In this document: positions 47,216 to 61,856 of the stretch, piece after piece
Numbering within the stretch: the first letter of the stretch is position 1
How the letters are laid out: each line of letters begins with the position of its first letter
Assembly (NCBI GenBank): GCA_029959285.1
Contig: JASCOE010000004.1
Span: forward strand, 372,001 to 436,000
Source: Flavobacteriaceae bacterium PS02337
GTDB lineage: Bacteria; Bacteroidota; Bacteroidia; Flavobacteriales; Flavobacteriaceae
Length of the DNA: 64,000 bases
Reading direction: 5' to 3'
Notes under the pieces: generated by a model
The model's database searches: none
What the model saw: the letters and a program-made list of their open reading frames with translations, nothing else
Told to the model about the DNA's origin: nothing
Program-made: the position numbers and the translations under genes

Positions 47216-47247
47216 TTTTAATTGGTTTTTTTATTTCTATTTCTGTT

Positions 47248-47316
47248 TTGTCACCCTGAGCGAAGTCGAAGGGTTTACATCGTATAAAAGGTCTTTGACT
47301 TCGCTCAGACTGACAA
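47248..47316. repeat. REP-like inverted repeat between umuC and umuD
   Basis: Arms at 47248-47272 (starting TTGTCACCCTGAGCGAAGTC) and 47292-47316 match in inverted orientation at 21 of 25 positions. The GTCACCCTGAGCGAAGTCGAAG motif family is a common extragenic repeat in many bacteria. Confidence 0.85.
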
Positions 47317-47320
47317 TAAC

Positions 47321-51303: not shown

Positions 51304-51448
51304 TTTTTTGCCGTTTTATTTTGCAATACTAACGAATGTTCGACGCAGGTATTTTGGACTTAATTGAACCTTAAGCGAATATTAATTTGCTGGTTTTAAA
51401 TAGGGTAGTTGAATTAAGATTGGCTAAATTTTTTAATATTTTTTTTAA

Positions 51449-51490
51449 AACAATTAACAATTAACAATTAACAATTAACAATTAACAATT
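51449..51490. repeat. Tandem 7-bp repeat AACAATT, six copies
   Basis: Six perfect copies of AACAATT run directly up to the stop codon of the Kdp histidine kinase. The 7-bp period is like that inside the kdp palindrome arms, but here there is no inverted partner. Confidence 0.95.
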
Positions 51491-51494
51491 ATTC

Positions 51495-53222
51495 TTATAC
51501 CTTCAACGAAAACCAAAATGTACTTCCCAATCCTAAATTGCTTTCTACGCCAACGTTTCCATTTTGAGCTTCTATAAATTCTTTGCTAATTGCTAAACCT
51601 AATCCCGTTCCAGATTTTTGACTTCCAGGAACTTGAAAATATTTATCAAAAACCTTGTCTCTATATCTTGTATCAATTCCTTTTCCAGTATCAATAACCT
51701 GAAAAACCATTTGATTATTTTCTTCTTTTAATTTAATGAGAATTGTACTTTTTTCTGAAGAATAGCGAATCGCATTTGATAAATAATTAATCAAAACCCA
51801 ACCCGTTTTTTCGGCATCGGCTTTTACGTTTTTGAGGTTTTCATCGGCATCAACAACTAATTGGATTTGTTTCTGATCTGCCTGAACTTTTACAGCTTCT
51901 ACAGCATATTTCACAATTTCATGCGGATTGCTTTTTCCAATATTCAGCTGAATATTTCCAGTTTCCAATTGTGACAAATTCAGTAATTCGCCTGTAATTT
52001 TCAACAAACGCTGACTGTCATCTTTAATACTTTCTACCAATTGTTTTTGATCATCATTCATATCGCCTGTTTTGTTGTTTTCAAGCAATTGAAGACTTAA
52101 TTTTATAGAAGCGATTGGTGTTTTTAATTCATGTGAAACCGTGGCGATAAAATTAGTTTTAGCAAAATCCAGTTCTTTAAAAAGGGTAATATTTCGGAGA
52201 ATAATCACATCGCCAATATTGATTTCTTTTTCTTCTCCCGTTGGCGTTATAGTAATATTGTGAATTTCTTTTTCGAAATAACTTTCTTTTCCGTGAGCAA
52301 AAATTTTGAGAGGTTGTTTTTTCGGACTTTCACTTTCTTTTAAAATTAAAGAACGAATTAAGTCATTCGAAACGGCTAATTCTGATGCCGATTTCCCAAT
52401 AATATCTTCTGATTTTAAACCGATAATTTTCAGTGCTTCATCATTTACAAACAAAACAATTTCTTCATTATCCAAACCAATAATAGGATCGTTCATATTA
52501 TTGATAAGCGTTTCAAGTCGTTTTTTCTCAAAAAGCAATTTATAAACATTGCTGTCATGATATTCTTCAAGCTTTTGCGCCATCGTATTAAACGATTTGG
52601 CAAGATCACCAAATTCGCTATGACTTGTAAAATGAACACGTTCTGAATAGTTTTTATTGGCAATTTCTTTAATACTCAGCGTTAATTCTTTAATTGGATT
52701 TGCAATATTATTAGGAAGATTAACCAATAAATTAAAAGCAATTAAAAAGCATAAAGTTCCCACAATGGCAATTGACAAATTAGCCGTTTCAGCCGATTGT
52801 TTGGCAATATCACTTTTCTGTTTTATGGCGTCGAGATTCAGTTTCATAATAGCAAAAATATCCTGACGAATTTGCGCTTTTACAGTTTCATCAGTATTGT
52901 TTTTGGCTAAAAGAGCAAAACTCCTTTTCAGTTTTTCGGTTGCTTGTTTTTCTCCAGGTTCTGTAATATTTCGGGTTTGCTTTTCGAGATTTTCCTCAAA
53001 ATTCTGAATCGTTTTTTTCGAATTTGATTTCATTCCGTCTAAAGCAAAAATCATATTTCGCGAATATTCCAGCGTATTGTAATTAGATTTCAAAATATTC
53101 TCGGTGTCCTGTTTAATCAGAAAAACAGAATATGCACTCACTAAAGAGAGAATGATGATCATCAAAAATAACAATCCAACACCCAGATTCAATTTGGTTT
53201 TAATTCTCATTTTATAAAACAT
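51495..53222 (-). CDS. Sensor histidine kinase with HAMP and PAS, Kdp cluster
   Basis: A 575-residue kinase. Transmembrane helices at about 10-33 and 147-167 flank a periplasmic helical region. HAMP (about 168-222, NLPNNIANPIKELTLSIKEI), PAS (about 230-345, NNMNDPIIGLDNEEIVLFVN), HisKA (His in ATVSHELKTPIASIKLS, about 362) and HATPase (INYLSNAIRYSS, DTGKGID, GTGLGLAISKEF) follow. It is the last gene of the kdp cluster, after the KdpD/Usp protein. It probably supplies the kinase half that the truncated KdpD lacks. Confidence 0.92.
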   Translation of the reverse strand: MFYKMRIKTKLNLGVGLLFLMIIILSLVSAYSVFLIKQDTENILKSNYNTLEYSRNMIFALDGMKSNSKKTIQNFEENLEKQTRNITEPGEKQATEKLKRSFALLAKNNTDETVKAQIRQDIFAIMKLNLDAIKQKSDIAKQSAETANLSIAIVGTLCFLIAFNLLVNLPNNIANPIKELTLSIKEIANKNYSERVHFTSHSEFGDLAKSFNTMAQKLEEYHDSNVYKLLFEKKRLETLINNMNDPIIGLDNEEIVLFVNDEALKIIGLKSEDIIGKSASELAVSNDLIRSLILKESESPKKQPLKIFAHGKESYFEKEIHNITITPTGEEKEINIGDVIILRNITLFKELDFAKTNFIATVSHELKTPIASIKLSLQLLENNKTGDMNDDQKQLVESIKDDSQRLLKITGELLNLSQLETGNIQLNIGKSNPHEIVKYAVEAVKVQADQKQIQLVVDADENLKNVKADAEKTGWVLINYLSNAIRYSSEKSTILIKLKEENNQMVFQVIDTGKGIDTRYRDKVFDKYFQVPGSQKSGTGLGLAISKEFIEAQNGNVGVESNLGLGSTFWFSLKV

Positions 53223-53231
53223 TTAAAATTT

Positions 53232-53426
53232 TTGAACCATATAAGTGATATAAGAAAATATTAGCTTTATAACCGCAAAGACGCAAAGGTTTCGCAAAGC
53301 ACGCAAAGATTTTTTCCATATTACAAAGAAAAAACTTTAGCGAACTTTGCGTATAAACCTTGCGTTCTTTGCGGTTAAACTTCACATTCTTAATTTAAAT
53401 GAACTTATATAACTTATATGGTTTAA
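53232..53426. repeat. Nested palindrome in the kinase-kdpD gap
   Basis: The outer arms start GAACCATATAAGTGATATAAG (left, within 53232-53254) and pair with 53404-53426. The inner arms hold units of CGCAAAG spaced 8-11 bp (53271-53310) and their complement (53331-53376). It fills nearly the whole 209-bp gap. Confidence 0.85.
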
Positions 53427-53431
53427 TTTTT

Positions 53432-54556
53432 TTACGACAAAATAACAAGATCGACATTTGATAAAGACAGTTTGTTTAGCAAACGCCTGAAAATTGTTGT
53501 AGACAAAATTACTTTAAATAAATTCAAATGCGGTTTTCCGATGCAGACAGTTGTAATTTGTTTTTCTTCTACGGCTGTTAAAATAGCATTTGCAATATTT
53601 GAATTTTCTAATTTAATAACTTCCGCGCCAAGCTGAACCGCGAGCTTAAAGTTATTAATTAAATGCCGTTGTTTATCTAGCGCAATTCTCGTAGTGCTTT
53701 CCTTCGGAGTTTCTACATACAAAACATACCAGATTCCGTTGTAATAACTAGCCAAACGTGCTGCTTTTCTAATTACGATTTTGGCCGTTTTATCATTACT
53801 GCTTATACATGCCAAAAGTTTCTCATGTCGTAAAGCATGAAGATTCGGAACTTCATTTTCAACTTTTCGAACGACCTGACTCGCTACTTCTTTCAAAGCC
53901 AATTCTCGAAGTTGTAAAATCTGTTCCGATTTAAAAAAGTTCATTAAAGCGGTCTGAATTTTATCAGAAGTATAAATTTTTCCTTCTTTCAAACGTGCAA
54001 TCAAATCTTCAGATGTTAAGTCGATATTCACAACTTCATCCGCCAATCGCAAAACATTATCCGGAATTCGTTCCTGAACATCAATTCCTGTAATACGTTT
54101 TACATCTTCATTTAAACTCTCAATATGCTGAATATTAACTGCCGAAATTACATTAATTCCAGCTTCCAGAATTTCTAAAACATCTTGCCAGCGTTTTTCG
54201 TTTTTGCTTCCTTCAACGTTCGTGTGCGCCAATTCATCAACAATAACCACTTCTGGACGAAGATTAATAATCGCCTGAACATCCAATTCTTCCAACTCTT
54301 TTCCTTTATAAAAAATCGTCCGTCTCGGAATTATAGGCAAACCTGCTAATAACTCATGGGTTTCCTTTCGCATGTGCGTTTCGATGTAGCCAATTTTCAC
54401 ATCGATTCCGTTTTTCAATAACGAATGCGCTTCCTGAAGCATACGAAAAGTTTTGCCCACACCGGCACTCATTCCAATGTAGATTTTAAATTTTCCCTTT
54501 CGTGATTTCTGAATTAAATCAAGAAAGTGCTGTGCGTTATTATTTTCGTTTTCCAT
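53432..54556 (-). CDS. kdpD: KdpD N-terminal sensor plus Usp domain (no kinase)
   Basis: A 374-residue soluble protein matching only the cytoplasmic N-terminal part of KdpD. Walker A is YIGMSAGVGKT (about 27-37) and Walker B is VVIVDELAHTN (about 104-114), followed by the KdpD core and a Usp-like domain from about 245. The DUF4118 membrane domain, GAF and histidine kinase of canonical KdpD are absent, and a separate kinase gene follows after 209 bp. It is a complete ORF, not a frameshift product. Confidence 0.9.
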   Translation of the reverse strand: MENENNNAQHFLDLIQKSRKGKFKIYIGMSAGVGKTFRMLQEAHSLLKNGIDVKIGYIETHMRKETHELLAGLPIIPRRTIFYKGKELEELDVQAIINLRPEVVIVDELAHTNVEGSKNEKRWQDVLEILEAGINVISAVNIQHIESLNEDVKRITGIDVQERIPDNVLRLADEVVNIDLTSEDLIARLKEGKIYTSDKIQTALMNFFKSEQILQLRELALKEVASQVVRKVENEVPNLHALRHEKLLACISSNDKTAKIVIRKAARLASYYNGIWYVLYVETPKESTTRIALDKQRHLINNFKLAVQLGAEVIKLENSNIANAILTAVEEKQITTVCIGKPHLNLFKVILSTTIFRRLLNKLSLSNVDLVILS

Positions 54557-54563
54557 AAAAATA

Positions 54564-54643
54564 TGCTTTAAGCAATAAGCTTTAGGCTTTAAGCAATAGA
54601 ACTTTCGAAAAAGCTTACTGCTTAAAGCCTATAGCCTAAAGCT
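54564..54643. repeat. Palindrome in the kdpD-porin gap
   Basis: The left arm AGCTTTAGGCTTTAAGCA (54577-54594) pairs with the right arm 54619-54643 (TGCTTAAAGCC...). Units of GCTTTA repeat with a 9-10 bp period. The right arm overlaps the porin stop codon. Confidence 0.85.
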
Positions 54644-55721
54644 AAAATGAAATCGCCAGCGAAGTCGTTACAAACGTATTTGTATCCGTTGGAAGATTAT
54701 CTTTATTCGTAAAAATTTCGTCTTTACTTGAAAGATTTCTGGCTTCAATTCTAAATATAACATTATCAGTAACTAAGTAATCAAAGTTAGCTGAAAATCC
54801 ATAAGTTTTAAAACCATTTGGCGTTTCAGTTGCGATGATTACACCTTTTTCATCACTATAATATTCACCACGCGCTGCAAGCTGAATTTTATCTGTTGGT
54901 TTATATTGCAGAATCAAAACTGGCGAAAACCAAGTATCATATTTGTTACTATTTTTAGCCGATTGTTGTGATCCAATGTCAAAACCAGCCGTTACATTTG
55001 TTTTTTCTGTTACTTTAAACTGTCCGTAAAAGTTATTAAAATAACGCCACTTTTTGTCAATATCTGGCTGTTCATTTCCAACATAAGTACTCCAGTTTAA
55101 AACCACTTTATCAGACGGTTTGTACGTAACCTGAGTTCCAAAAGCAGGCGTTTGATTGCCTTCGACTTTCTCAATTCGCTGCCAGCCGTTTAAGTACATT
55201 CCCGCTAAATACCATTTTCCAGATTCAGACGTATAACCAATTTTTACTCCCGTTTCATAATAAGGAGAATTCTCAGCCAGAATGCTTCTCGTTAAAGTCT
55301 GACAATCTTTTCCAATCGCACTTTCAAAACCAATATGCGAAGGCATGATTCCAGCATCAATCCATAAATTTTGGGTTTTCGAAATCTTTACACCAACATT
55401 CGCCTCATAAACATTTTTCAATAAACCTTGTTCGGCAGACATATTATATTCGGCATAAGTTCCCGCCATCAAGGCAAAATTCCCTCGAATATTTTCTTTC
55501 GAATAATTCACTTTTGCCATTCCCAAGTTCAGATTTACCTCGTTGCTTTTATTGTAACTGTAAAAAAAGTTTGGCCGAGTATGATTTTCCGGTTTCGCGA
55601 AATCATAACTATAATAAGCGTCTACATATCCTGAAAACGTAAACGGACTTTTTGATTCTTCTTGTGCATGTAAATTGCTAAAACCAAAAGCGATTAAAGC
55701 AGTAAGTATTATTTTTTTCAT
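54642..55721 (-). CDS. Outer-membrane porin (BBP2/OmpL-like)
   Basis: A 359-residue beta-barrel protein with a signal peptide (IILTALIAFGFSNLHAQ). The barrel contains repeated amphipathic strands, starting FTFSGYVDAYYSYDF, and ends with the aromatic-terminal strand FVTTSLAISF. It resembles the BBP2 (OmpL-like) porin family. Placement between kdpC and kdpD in one operon suggests a role in passing potassium through the outer membrane; this is an inference. Confidence 0.85.
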   Translation of the reverse strand: MKKIILTALIAFGFSNLHAQEESKSPFTFSGYVDAYYSYDFAKPENHTRPNFFYSYNKSNEVNLNLGMAKVNYSKENIRGNFALMAGTYAEYNMSAEQGLLKNVYEANVGVKISKTQNLWIDAGIMPSHIGFESAIGKDCQTLTRSILAENSPYYETGVKIGYTSESGKWYLAGMYLNGWQRIEKVEGNQTPAFGTQVTYKPSDKVVLNWSTYVGNEQPDIDKKWRYFNNFYGQFKVTEKTNVTAGFDIGSQQSAKNSNKYDTWFSPVLILQYKPTDKIQLAARGEYYSDEKGVIIATETPNGFKTYGFSANFDYLVTDNVIFRIEARNLSSKDEIFTNKDNLPTDTNTFVTTSLAISF

Positions 55722-56168
55722 TTTGTCATTGCGAGGAACGAAGCAATCTCATCCTCTTAATTAAATTATTTATTAGTAGATTTTTTAGGAGCTAATCCCG
55801 CTATCCGTTTCAATCTTTTGTGCCGAACCCCGGCACAAAAGGATTTCCACTACTATCGGGGCTAGGGCATTTGGGGTAAAAAAGGCGTTTTCGTATTCTG
55901 CAAGGTTTCCAAAACCTTGTAGGTATTAATTATAAGTTTCAGTTCACGCTCTGTTTGTCATTCCGAGGAACGAGGAATCTCCGCAAGAAACTCCACATAG
56001 AAATTCGTCAATCTTTGTCGAGCTACTCGTGGAGATTCCTCGTTCCTCGGAATGACAAACGTTGTGGTTACTGTATTATAATTTCTAACTAGTCTATCAT
56101 ACCTACAAGGTTTTAAAAACCTTGCAGGAGAAAAACTTAGTATCTCAGTATCTTAGAACCTTAGCATC
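55722..56168. other. Porin-kdpC gap filled with repeats
   Basis: 447 bp without a gene. From left: a fragment GTCATTGCGAGGAACGAAGC (about 55725-55750); an element with stem CTTTTGTGCCG/CGGCACAAAAG (55789-55868); the nested palindrome 55898-56127; and an 8-bp periodic stretch of CTTAGNNN units (56136-56171) running into the kdpC stop codon. Confidence 0.85.
55898..56127. repeat. Nested inverted repeat with a perfect 30-bp pair
   Basis: The outer arms 55898-55926 and 56099-56127 match at 27 of 29 positions, and each contains its own small hairpin (CAAGGTTT/AAACCTTG). The inner arms 55953-55982 and 56031-56060 are perfect over 30 bp (starting GTTTGTCATTCCGAGGAACG), a known type of REP-like sequence. 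Confidence 0.95.
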
Positions 56169-56720
56169 TTAGCGAAGCGCATCCAGCGCCAAATTCAATT
56201 CCAAAACATTAACCGTTTCAGGTCCAACAACAGCAGTATTAATTTTAGATTCAACCAAAGCTTTTACTTTAGCTTCAGCTAAATTTCTTTCTTTAGCAAT
56301 TCGTTTTACCTGAATCAAAGCACCTTGAGGAGAAACATTCGGATCTAAACCACTTCCTGAAGCCGTAACCATATCTGATGGAATATCAGATTTTTTCAAG
56401 TAAGGATGAACCAATAAAAGTGTATCAATTCTTTTTTGAACCAAAGCCAAATAATCCGCGTTGCTTGGGCCTTTGTTGCTTCCGGCACTTCCTGCCGCAT
56501 TATAATCAACAGCCGAAGGTCTTCCCCAGAAATAATTCGACTTATCGAATTTTTGACCAATTTTTTGATAACCAACGACTTTTTCGTTAACCGAGATTGT
56601 TTCTCCTTTTCCTTGATTTGGAGCAATTTGTGCGATTCCGTAAATCGCAAGAGGATAAATAACTGCGAATATGATTAAAGTAACCGCAGTAAGTTTTAAT
56701 ATAGAAAATAGATTTTTCAT
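56169..56720 (-). CDS. kdpC: Potassium-transporting ATPase KdpC subunit
   Basis: A 183-residue subunit. One N-terminal transmembrane helix (about 12-32) is followed by the KdpC periplasmic domain with GQKFDKSNYFWGRPSAVDYNAAGSAGSNKGPSN and SGSGLDPNVSPQGA, both family motifs. It stabilises the KdpFABC complex. The gene lies between kdpB and the porin gene, with repeat-filled gaps on both sides. Confidence 0.96.
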   Translation of the reverse strand: MKNLFSILKLTAVTLIIFAVIYPLAIYGIAQIAPNQGKGETISVNEKVVGYQKIGQKFDKSNYFWGRPSAVDYNAAGSAGSNKGPSNADYLALVQKRIDTLLLVHPYLKKSDIPSDMVTASGSGLDPNVSPQGALIQVKRIAKERNLAEAKVKALVESKINTAVVGPETVNVLELNLALDALR

Positions 56721-56729
56721 TTTTTTTGA

Positions 56730-56884
56730 GATTCTAAGGGACTAAGTTGCTAAGGTTCTAAGTTTTTTTTCAGAAACTTAGCAATCTAAAGTCTGTGTTT
56801 TTTATTTGAGTTTTTGAAGATTCCTGAATTTTACGATTCTAAGAGAAAAACCTTAGTCCCTTAGAATCTTAGCATCTTAGAACC
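56730..56884. repeat. Palindrome with 8-bp periodicity in the kdpC-kdpB gap
   Basis: The arms GATTCTAAGGGACTAAG (56730-56746) and its exact complement (56852-56868) are perfect over 17 bp. The right side continues as units of CTTAGNNN at exact 8-bp spacing into the kdpB stop codon, like the stretch beside the kdpC stop. Confidence 0.92.
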
Positions 56885-58942
56885 TTACATAAATAAAGCA
56901 ACTAGTAAATCAATTACTTTAATTCCGATAAAAGGAACAATTAGACCGCCAAGACCATAAATTAAAAGGTTTCTTTTAAGGATTGCACTAGCTCCAATTG
57001 GACGGTAATCAACACCTTTCAGCGCAAGCGGAATTAAAATCGGAATAATAATCGCGTTGAAAATTACAGCCGATAAAATAGCACTTTCAGGGCTGTGCAA
57101 ATGCATGATATTTAAACCTTGCAGCGCAGGAATCGCAGTAATAAAAAGAGCAGGAACAATAGCAAAATATTTCGCAACGTCATTTGCAATAGAAAAAGTA
57201 GTTAAAGTTCCACGAGTCATTAAAAGCTGTTTTCCAATTTCGACAATCTCGATAAGTTTTGTTGGGTCATTGTCAAGATCGACCATGTTTCCAGCTTCTT
57301 TTGCCGCTTGTGTTCCACTGTTCATGGCAACTCCAACATTCGCTTGGGCAAGGGCAGGAGCATCATTTGTTCCGTCGCCCATCATGGCAACCAATCTTCC
57401 TTCAGCTTGTTCTTTTCTGATGTAATTCATTTTATCCTCAGGTTTAGCTTCGGCAATAAAATCATCAACACCGGCTGCTTCCGCAATAAATTTAGCCGTA
57501 AGTGGATTATCACCTGTAACCATAACAGTTTTGATTCCCATTCTGCGTAAGCGCTCAAAACGTTCTTTCATTCCGGTTTTTATAATATCCTGCAATTCGA
57601 TAACGCCTTGAATTTCATTATTTTTAATAACAACTAAAGGCGTTCCTCCGTTAGATGAAATCGTGATTACTTGTTGTGCAGTATCTTCAGGAAAAGCATT
57701 TCCAGCTTGTTGTGCAATATTCCTTGCTGCATCTTGTGCACCTTTACGAATGTTTGTTCCATCTTTTAATACTACTCCAGAAGTTCTGGTTTCGGCAGTA
57801 AATTTGATGGTGTGCGCGATGTCAGAAGTAGTTTGTAAAAACGAAGCTTTTGTCTCATTTTTTACATCGATCATTTCACTTAACTCGAGAATACTTTTCC
57901 CTTCAGGAGTATCATCTGCAAGTGAACTCAAAACAGCCGATTTCACAAAATCATCAAAAGAAATTCCTTTTGTTGGATAAAAATTGGTTGCTTTTCTGTT
58001 TCCAATTGTGATTGTTCCAGTTTTATCCAAAAGCAACACATCAATATCTCCCGCAGTTTCAACCGCTTTACCCGATTTTGTAATTACGTTGGCACGTAAA
58101 GCTCTGTCCATTCCCGCAATACCAATTGCAGAAAGTAATCCTCCAATTGTAGTTGGAATCAAACACACAAATAATGCAATGAAAGCTGCAATCGTGATGG
58201 GTGCGTTGGCATAGTCGGCAAACGGTTTTAGCGTAACGCACACAATCACGAAAATTAAAGTAAATGCAGCTAATAAAATGGTTAAGGCAATTTCGTTTGG
58301 TGTTTTCTGACGGCTCGCACCTTCAACCAAAGCAATCATTTTATCTAAAAAGCTTTCGCCTGGTTCAGATGTTACTTTTACTTTAATTTTATCAGATAAG
58401 ACTTTTGTTCCTCCGGTAACAGAAGATTTATCTCCGCCAGCTTCGCGAATTACAGGCGCACTTTCTCCAGTAATGGCACTCTCGTCGATTGTAGCCAGAC
58501 CTTCGATAATTTCACCATCGGCAGCAATTAAATCGCCAGCTTCACAAACGAAAATATCGTCTTTTTTTAATTGTGAAGAACTGATGTTTTTAATTTCTCC
58601 GTTAGGCATAATTTGTCTTGCAGGAGTTTCTTCTCTTGTTTTTCTTAAACTGTCGGCTTGTGCTTTTCCTCTGGCTTCGGCAATTGCTTCTGCGAAATTG
58701 GCAAACAAAAGTGTTACCAATAAGATTAGAAAAACAATTAAATTATAAATAAAACTACCTTGATCGGTTGCACCCATCAAGATCGAAACGCAAACGGCAA
58801 ACATAATTGCAGTTCCTATTTCTACGGTAAACATTACCGGATTTTTGATCATCATTTTTGGATTCAGCTTGACAAAAGATTGCACTAAGGCTTCTTTTAC
58901 CTGTTTACTTTCAAACAATGATGTGGATTTATTAGTTGTCAT
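56885..58942 (-). CDS. kdpB: Potassium-transporting ATPase KdpB subunit (P-type ATPase)
   Basis: A 685-residue catalytic subunit of the KdpFABC pump. The phosphorylation motif DKTGTIT has Asp at about 305, the actuator loop is TGESAPV, and the hinge is [31 protein letters not shown] followed by [12 protein letters not shown]. Length is normal. It hydrolyses ATP to drive high-affinity potassium import. Confidence 0.98.
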
Positions 58943-58975
58943 TTTTTATATTATTTTGTTTAACTGATTTTTTTT

Positions 58976-59110
58976 AAACACATAGAAACATAGATTTTGC
59001 TTTGAGGAAAAGGCGTTTCACTTGCATTAACACACATAGCTATGTGTTAGAAACTAGTTTCTTTCAATTTTCTTTTTAGGTAAAGAAAAAACCTATGTTT
59101 CTATGTGTTT
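58976..59110. repeat. Palindrome in the kdpB-kdpA gap
   Basis: The arms AAACACATAGAAACATAG (58976-58993) and its exact complement (59093-59110) are perfect over 18 bp. A 16-bp perfect palindrome ACACATAGCTATGTGT lies between them (59032-59047). The arms carry ACATAG units spaced 8-9 bp. Confidence 0.95.
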
Positions 59111-59140
59111 AAAATATTTTCAGCATTGAAAAATGAGTTA

Positions 59141-61610: not shown

Positions 61611-61632
61611 CTCGTTTTGATATGTTATTTTT

Positions 61633-61794
61633 AAGCTTCGGAGAAGCGAAATATTTATAGAAAACACATAATCGTAGTAATTATAACCCCAGCGGAGTGA
61701 CATAATTTTTTTAGATTGCGTAGGGTGTCGCTCCGCTGGAGCTTTTTTTCATTGGCAATAAATAATCTATAAATATTACGCTTCTCCGAAGCTT
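61633..61794. repeat. 162-bp nested palindromic element
   Basis: The outer arms 61633-61660 and 61767-61794 match at 27 of 28 positions (left arm starts AAGCTTCGGAGAAGCG). The inner arms CCAGCGGAGTGACA (61689-61702) and TGTCGCTCCGCTGG (61726-61739) match at 13 of 14. The outer arm itself folds as GCTTC-GGA-GAAGC. This is MITE- or REP-like; no transposase is nearby. Confidence 0.92.
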
Positions 61795-61856
61795 TGAAAA
61801 TTGAATTTGAAACTTGATATTGATATTGATATTGGGATTTTTGAATTTTGCAATTG

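Follow-up and report, generated by a model that had tools for sequence, protein, structure and literature searches.

Each of the five consecutive gaps between the kinase gene and kdpA in the kdp operon of Flavobacteriaceae bacterium PS02337 holds a long inverted repeat, which raises the question of whether these hairpins serve the operon or have settled in it. The operon lies in the window analyzed here, a 64,000-nucleotide stretch of contig JASCOE010000004.1 (positions 372,001 to 436,000). The original prediction offered two answers: the hairpins may belong to a class of extragenic elements that become inserted, or expand, at the ends of genes, or they may set the ratio of the Kdp subunit mRNAs. 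We favor a reading of the first kind, with a probability of roughly 0.6, in which the kdp hairpins are miniature elements resembling the intervening sequences (IVSs) of 23S rRNA that colonize gene ends. A partner protein of the IVP (PF05635) or GxxExxY (PF13366) family would recognize their words, and copies would spread in trans, in the manner of RAYT proteins and REPINs, hairpin doublets of repetitive extragenic palindromes (REPs). The partner genes were absent from the earlier interpretation and were added by the follow-up analysis.

Inverted repeats in the gaps of the kdp operon

Long inverted repeats are indeed present in all five gaps (kinase-kdpD, kdpD-porin, porin-kdpC, kdpC-kdpB and kdpB-kdpA), and both RNA folding and the gap survey described below place them above chance. 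The fold z-scores against shuffled sequence are -10.5, -7.3, -9.4 and -13.6 for four structures and -5.4 for the CTTAG element. The arms of most of these repeats are built of direct repeats of 7-9 bp. Coordinates below are those of the window, and the repeats carry no strand assignment.

The kinase-kdpD gap contains a CGCAAAG element (arms 53270-53292 and 53355-53377; whole 53270-53377) enclosed by an outer ACCATATAAG element (arms 53224-53254 and 53404-53434; whole 53224-53434); by word count, the ACCATATAAG element occurs without the inner CGCAAAG element in 5 relatives. The kdpD-porin gap is filled by a GCTTTA/AAGC element (arms 54567-54598 and 54616-54647; whole 54567-54647), which reaches into the porin stop codon and whose words adjoin MRDFKK-type IVP genes in other genomes. 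The kdpC-kdpB gap holds the CTTAGNNN element (arms 56729-56746 and 56852-56869; whole 56729-56884), with four CTAAG units from 56734 and four CTTAG units from 56852, ending at the kdpB stop codon. In the kdpB-kdpA gap lies the ACATAG element (arms 58972-58998 and 59088-59114; whole 58972-59114) with an inner ACACATAGCTATGTGT palindrome, of which 10 further copies were aligned.

The porin-kdpC gap is composite. A Flavo-1 RNA (RF01705, minus strand, 55790-55867) was identified by covariance model (79.3 bits; gathering score 42); the match is limited to these positions, and the periodic elements have no RF01705 match above the gathering score. Next to it stands a non-periodic inverted repeat of the GTCATTCCGAGGAACGAGGAATCTCC type with 49-nt arms (55953-56001 and 56012-56060), surrounded by an outer palindromic pair (55898-55926 and 56099-56127). 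The third component is a lone CTTAG arm of five units 8 bp apart (56136-56172, within the stretch 56129-56172). The kdpC stop codon falls inside the last of these units, and no partner arm was seen in this gap; the arm is perhaps half an element. Several relatives likewise have only one CTTAG arm in this gap, adjoining kdpC. Rfam matches to MIR6027, mir-879 and sok scored under the gathering score and were set aside as chance.

The repeats are distinct from gap to gap, as had been described, but they do not represent five different families, because the composite porin-kdpC gap shares CTTAG words with the kdpC-kdpB gap. Degenerate short-period arms hold for most gaps, the exceptions being the non-periodic 49-nt repeat and the GCTTTA gap, where spacing is irregular. 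The exact 8-bp spacing applies to CTTAG in both of its gaps (8-8-8-8 in porin-kdpC and 8-8-8 in kdpC-kdpB); ACATAG units are 8 bp apart, ATATAAG/CTTATAT units 9 bp and CGCAAAG units 8-11-9. Repeats running into stop codons were correctly noted for kdpC, kdpB and the porin. We dropped the idea that an 8-bp period provides stop codons in all frames, because stop codons are lacking from the CGCAAAG and GTTTCA words. A sixth consecutive gap, absent from the earlier list, lies behind the kinase gene (51304-51494) and contains (TTGTTAA)n with a period of 7: this heptamer array (51449-51491, or 51449-51496 with wider bounds; AACAATT on the plus strand, TTGTTAA in operon sense, no strand assigned) begins at the kinase stop codon.

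One design behind many words across the genome

Counting the arm words across the genome, as the original prediction had suggested, revealed large families. With at most one mismatch allowed in it, the triplet CTTAGNNNCTTAGNNNCTTAG has 280 matches compared to 2 for the control pattern read backwards, and ACACATAGNAACATAG, the arm word of the ACATAG element, has 53 compared to 0. We then surveyed 864 kb of the genome (about 15%) for gaps of 40 bp or longer. The sample comprised 40 stretches, many of them picked around CTTAG matches, together with the window, and its genes came from a simple open reading frame picker. An inverted repeat scoring at least 16 was found in 150 of the 534 gaps and in 0 of 534 dinucleotide-shuffled gaps, a rate inflated because many stretches were chosen near CTTAG matches.

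By word counts, these 150 repeats comprise 29 of the CTAAG type, 16 CGCAAAG, 15 CACAGATT or CGGATT, fewer of others and 50 unassigned, of which 23 are short, terminator-like hairpins. One common design underlies many different words. Such repeats occur in 54/92 convergent, 92/339 co-directional and only 4/103 divergent gaps. The elements are high-copy extragenic hairpin doublets, like those of REPIN-RAYT systems, and are also non-coding, multicopy and bounded by terminal inverted repeats. The window holds further long inverted repeats at 61627-61801 and 47245-47320, of the CTTCGGAGAAGCG and GTCACCCTGAGCGAAGTCGAAG types.

Elements come and go at orthologous kdp gaps

A search of 121 genomes of the genus found KdpB in 51, and we used the loci of 40 relatives, 41 with the PS02337 locus. 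Families were assigned to gaps by word counts; gaps classed as other or missing were excluded from the counts of changes. In this comparison, another that had been proposed from the start, the same gap may be empty, hold the same family or hold another one. Of the 41 loci, 18 have an empty kdpB-kdpA gap (31 bp or less) and 14 have the ACATAG element there. In four relatives this gap carries an insert of 515-566 bp encoding a small protein between TGTAAAATG-type arms, and this protein matches PF05635 (23S_rRNA_IVP). The other kdp gaps of relatives contain CTTAG, TGTAAAATG, ATTAAG, GCTTTA, GCCACAGATT, CGCAAAG or ATATAAG elements in variable combinations. Mapped on a KdpA+KdpB tree, the minimum numbers of changes are 14 for kdpB-kdpA, 6 for kdpC-kdpB, 15 for porin-kdpC, 16 for kdpD-porin and 13 for kinase-kdpD. 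Two relatives (L142 and L143) have four of the five gaps empty (2-31 bp); these may be close to what an element-free kdp operon looks like.

The proposal that the hairpins set the ratio of Kdp subunit mRNAs as a conserved function found no support in this comparison, because the kdpB-kdpA gap is empty in so many loci and occupied by unrelated families in others; a conserved Kdp-specific role is not supported. A local effect of the hairpin may still exist at the steadier kdpC-kdpB gap, because CTTAG is found there in 24/41 loci. The findings caution against taking gene-end hairpins in Flavobacterium for operon-specific regulation. The extragenic element class fared better, being supported by the genome-wide copies, by presence, absence and replacement at orthologous gaps, by the rarity of repeats in divergent gaps relative to convergent ones, and by the position of gene-bearing copies directly behind stop codons.

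IVP and GxxExxY genes often lie between inverted arms

PF05635 genes number seven in the PS02337 genome and occur in 60 of the 61 Flavobacterium genomes searched and in none of 14 control genomes. Read by eye, all seven have periodic words on both sides, with a different set for each gene (CTAAG, GGTTGATG, TTAATCG, CAGTTTT, TTATGAG, GATTTTT and ATTGATA), and the flanks of five of the seven reach an inverted-repeat score of 16. To extend this to the genus we assembled 100 loci, namely these 7, 29 taken one per genome, 60 further ones by E-value among the matches listed and the 4 from the kdp gaps; weak-scoring IVPs are under-represented in this set. Flanks were of sufficient length at 98 loci. 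Reading by eye covered part of the loci and the statistics all of them, with 150 genes of the PS02337 genome serving as control genes.

The flanks are inverted (score at least 16) at 64/98 IVP loci, compared to 9/294 mismatched flank pairs and 7/150 control genes. At 84/98 loci one flank or both exceed 95% of shuffles in periodicity; the period is 7 or 8 for 121 of the 133 arms concerned, and periodic arms have a median of 4.6 units (125 arms). For 64 of 73 arms the start lies at most 13 bp from the stop codon of the upstream gene, and this gene is co-directional at 94/98 loci. G outnumbers C in 62 of 76 5' arms, and the reverse holds in 7. The proteins are under purifying selection, with a median dN/dS of 0.078 over 60 pairs and no pair above 0.5. 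The gene-bearing copies and kdp elements examined adjoin open reading frames, and none lies within a 23S rRNA helix. At three loci (L146, L147 and L338), the IVP gene apparently has a complete hairpin on each side rather than one arm per side. One IVP compared with bAvd (PF22296), the accessory protein of diversity-generating retroelements, scored 33.3 bits against a cut-off of 40.

GxxExxY genes sit near CACAGATT-like repeats, which prompted a search for PF13366. This family, of the PDDEXK fold and unrelated to the four-helix bundle of IVP, is present in 50 of the 61 genus genomes and in 3 of the 14 control genomes. The GxxExxY gene of PS02337 (L254) lies between CGCAAAG words, the same as in the kinase-kdpD gap, and the words in GxxExxY flanks generally are CGCAAAG, CACAAAG, CACAGATT and CGGATT. 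From 30 loci, 29 gave an open reading frame and 27 had long enough flanks; arms are inverted in 20/27 compared to 10/81 mismatched pairs. Here too selection is purifying (median dN/dS 0.060, 11 pairs).

Protein clades and arm words vary together

Related proteins tend to share words. IVP pairs from different gene contexts have arm words in common in 70% of 30 pairs at an identity of at least 0.7, compared to 3-4% of 3,699 pairs at 0.3-0.5, and for GxxExxY the correlation between clade and words reaches r 0.485 with a permutation maximum of 0.181. The resident IVP arm is also tracked by word counts: across 16 genomes with an IVP at one orthologous site (8 with CTAAG and 8 with CAAAG/CAGAG arms; genomes picked and arms assigned by eye among the loci listed), the CTTAG/CTTTG triplet ratio follows the arm (U 58 of 64, p 0.0047), although relatedness among loci and genomes makes such p values optimistic. 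At one orthologous IVP site (L145, L152-L154, L157, L158, L170, L178, L191 and L201) the protein is kept and the arm words vary by species between CTAAG and CAAAG; it is a natural series for the joint change of both arms.

Distribution beyond Flavobacterium

A GTDB scan yielded at least 582 IVP relatives, of which 80 were kept. Arms are inverted at 43/80 of these loci compared to 1/80 for mismatched flanks, a flank is periodic at 65/80, and the period is mostly 7 or 8 (87/96 arms); a few loci were assigned a wrong start codon (e.g., L287, L317 and L334). By record title, loci with inverted and periodic arms fall in Bacteroidota, KSB1, Nitrospirae, Lambdaproteobacteria/SAR324, Acidobacteria, Chloroflexi, Deltaproteobacteria, Planctomycetes, Firmicutes and Paceibacterota, where several records are metagenome bins whose titles may be wrong.

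Among plasmids, IVP genes occur in 25 records, 23 of them cyanobacterial. Of the 14 records viewed by eye, most have short-period arms (e.g., GGGAGTA, GACAGGG and AAAAGCT), and a Gemmatimonadota plasmid record, likewise read by eye, has an arm with an 8-bp period. Relatives of Nostoc carry plasmid IVP genes between heptamer arms. On cyanobacterial plasmids (L358, L359 and L360) the IVP gene and its arms lie within runs of CRISPR-cas genes, in the orders cas10-IVP-cmr3 and cas6-IVP-cas4. One figure legend, on CRISPR-linked genes, mentions IVP (PMC10910872), perhaps because of insertions like these.

Proposed mechanism and competing explanations

In the layout we propose, a 5' arm of degenerate short units (about four to five units of 7-8 bp in the IVP type) would be followed by a loop or a small gene and then by the inverted arm. 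Two unrelated families would serve as partners, with looser CGCAAAG, CACAGATT and CGGATT words in the case of GxxExxY. Each partner gene tends to have its own word family and a site directly behind the stop codon of a co-directional gene, and gene-less copies with these words occupy other gaps. The data show the pairing, the covariation of clade and words, purifying selection on the proteins, turnover at orthologous gaps and gene-end placement; from these we infer that the partner protein recognizes the arm words and that copies spread in trans by a DNA or RNA route, as is thought for RAYTs acting on REPINs. The IVP homologue structures 2gsc and 2rld have five chains each, 2gsc being the Xanthomonas IVP XCC0516, which has been described as a homopentameric ring (PMC4990558). 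An IVP might perhaps read one unit per subunit, which four to five units per arm would fit. Gene-end placement and co-directionality can arise from selection, with promoterless genes needing read-through and harmful insertions purged, or from targeting. This scheme predicts that the XCC0516 gene lies between GGGAATC arms and that purified IVPs favor their own arm words.

Several observations weigh against this scheme. Two of the seven IVP genes of PS02337 fall below the inverted-repeat threshold (L148 with 15 and L149, which has a short 3' arm, with 9), as do 34/98 loci of the genus set. Periodic flanks also occur at 55/150 control genes, many of which themselves border elements. GxxExxY arms are looser than IVP arms, because only 13/27 loci have a periodic flank. 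The overall correlation between IVP clade and words is weak (r 0.130; maximum of 500 permutations 0.111), and at the preset identity of at least 0.5 the periods of related IVPs with different words agree no more than the null (0.525 vs 0.520, 756 pairs); agreement of 0.88 among 58 pairs in the 0.6-0.8 identity bin is a hint only. Further copies of the IVP flanks in this genome could not be traced informatively by shared 11-mers (control median 17 of 534 gaps). BLAST of the seven flanks matched 46, 3, 11, 8, 0, 9 and 10 gaps and BLAST of the GxxExxY flanks 24, with 48/100 control genes also matching at least 3. No partner gene was found for the ACATAG or ACCATATAAG words, and by-eye comparison of empty and filled kdpB-kdpA sites, which are old, showed no clear target-site duplication. 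To our knowledge IVP has no catalytic function. Transposition, excision and binding were not observed.

Alternatively, IVP and GxxExxY might be host RNA- or DNA-binding proteins that read arrays at mRNA ends, much as TRAP does with repeated triplets. The hairpins would then be maintained by the host as sites for processing or stability and would not be selfish elements. Strong RNA hairpins, sites behind stop codons, purifying selection on the proteins and the matching of different words with different proteins would all suit such a module. It accounts poorly for the fast loss, gain and replacement at orthologous kdp gaps and for the hundreds of copies adjoining unrelated genes, and we consider it unlikely. 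A mutational origin is another candidate, in which slippage creates the short-period units, template switching between arms keeps the inversion and the genes are passengers. Published heptamer arrays vary in copy number and slippage has been proposed for them (PMC4692102 and PMC4679880), and some of the arrays seen here are long and perfect (L359, L327 and L218). Such an origin predicts neither the pairing with two protein families nor the link between clade and word, nor hundreds of copies of one word, nor whole genes inserted together with their arms between kdpB and kdpA; we regard it as quite improbable.

Ordinary bidirectional transcription terminators at gene ends would explain why convergent gaps are richest in repeats and why nearly half of the unassigned ones look terminator-like. 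This explanation strikes us as very improbable: a scan of the region for a hairpin with a T run gave 5 sites compared to 4.7 in shuffles, with 0 at periodic elements, several elements lie inside operons, and termination needs neither long periodic arms nor coding inserts. We give still less credence to the hairpins being REPs of the RAYT (Y1) transposases of this genome. The idea draws on the RAYT pattern of a protein gene accompanied by hairpins (PMC3116915) and on the four Y1_Tnp genes of the genome (L031, L032, L033 and L034), but in the DNA up to about 1.5 kb from these genes a search with eight word patterns gave one GCTTTA match, and at least three of the four are flanked, as judged by eye, by simple palindromes of other words, so that these genes are not supported as partners. 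As a separate observation, a CCACGGTTTCAACC-type palindrome of the RAYT-gene flanks is also found within ACATAG elements of relatives.

Comparison with known systems

Returning to the reading as IVS-like elements with IVP or GxxExxY partners, we found no published link of this kind among the open-licence papers listed, as judged by title and abstract opening, and an earlier report may exist elsewhere. Miniature inverted-repeat transposable elements (MITEs) are short and non-coding, with terminal inverted repeats and many copies, and the ACATAG element resembles them most. It differs in that no known transposase with matching ends was found among the families searched (only PF01797, PF05635 and PF13366) and no target-site duplication was recognized.

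Heptamers between genes are also known from Xanthomonas (GGGAATC, with 70 and 75 inverted pairs in two genomes) and from Nostoc (GGGGA(C/T)T) (PMC4692102), while the TAACTGA repeats of Beggiatoaceae form direct arrays mostly just before start codons (PMC4679880). They share with our elements the 7-bp units between genes; unlike here, no protein partner is named in the parts of these two reports on which we draw.

The 23S rRNA IVSs, too, resemble the elements: they carry a PF05635-type open reading frame in an insert with inverted-repeat ends. In Coxiella burnetii, tandem heptamers (GACAGAT) in strain-variable number stand just before the S23p open reading frame, and a mobile origin has already been proposed for the IVS (PMC4990558). 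Whereas IVSs are rRNA inserts that RNase III removes, the elements described here lie behind stop codons between protein genes, with many gene-less copies and word families. On the mechanism above, 23S rRNA IVSs would represent such elements trapped in rRNA.

A bolder and decidedly tentative proposal, which we judge to be somewhat improbable as a whole, would make this a new mobile system. A ring-shaped four-helix-bundle protein without known enzymatic activity would read about five words of 7-8 nt, one per subunit, and thereby spread hairpins between genes across the bacterial tree; an unrelated nuclease-fold protein would have converged on the same design. A single phenomenon would then cover rRNA IVSs, the heptamers of cyanobacteria and Xanthomonas and the Flavobacterium hairpins at gene ends. 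Even without this bolder proposal, the favored reading would give a role to PF05635, a very common family of unknown function, and a partner to the 7-8-bp intergenic repeats of unrelated phyla.

A parallel in organization is the REPIN-RAYT system, where high-copy extragenic hairpin doublets of each family lie beside their own protein gene, and the genes persist as the short copies spread (PMC3116915). The components differ: REPIN-RAYT systems combine a Y1 tyrosine transposase with REPs that are single palindromes, whereas here a four-helix-bundle or PDDEXK-fold protein goes with arms made of 7-8-bp units. The reading favored here suggests that proteins other than RAYTs can also be paired with hairpin populations.

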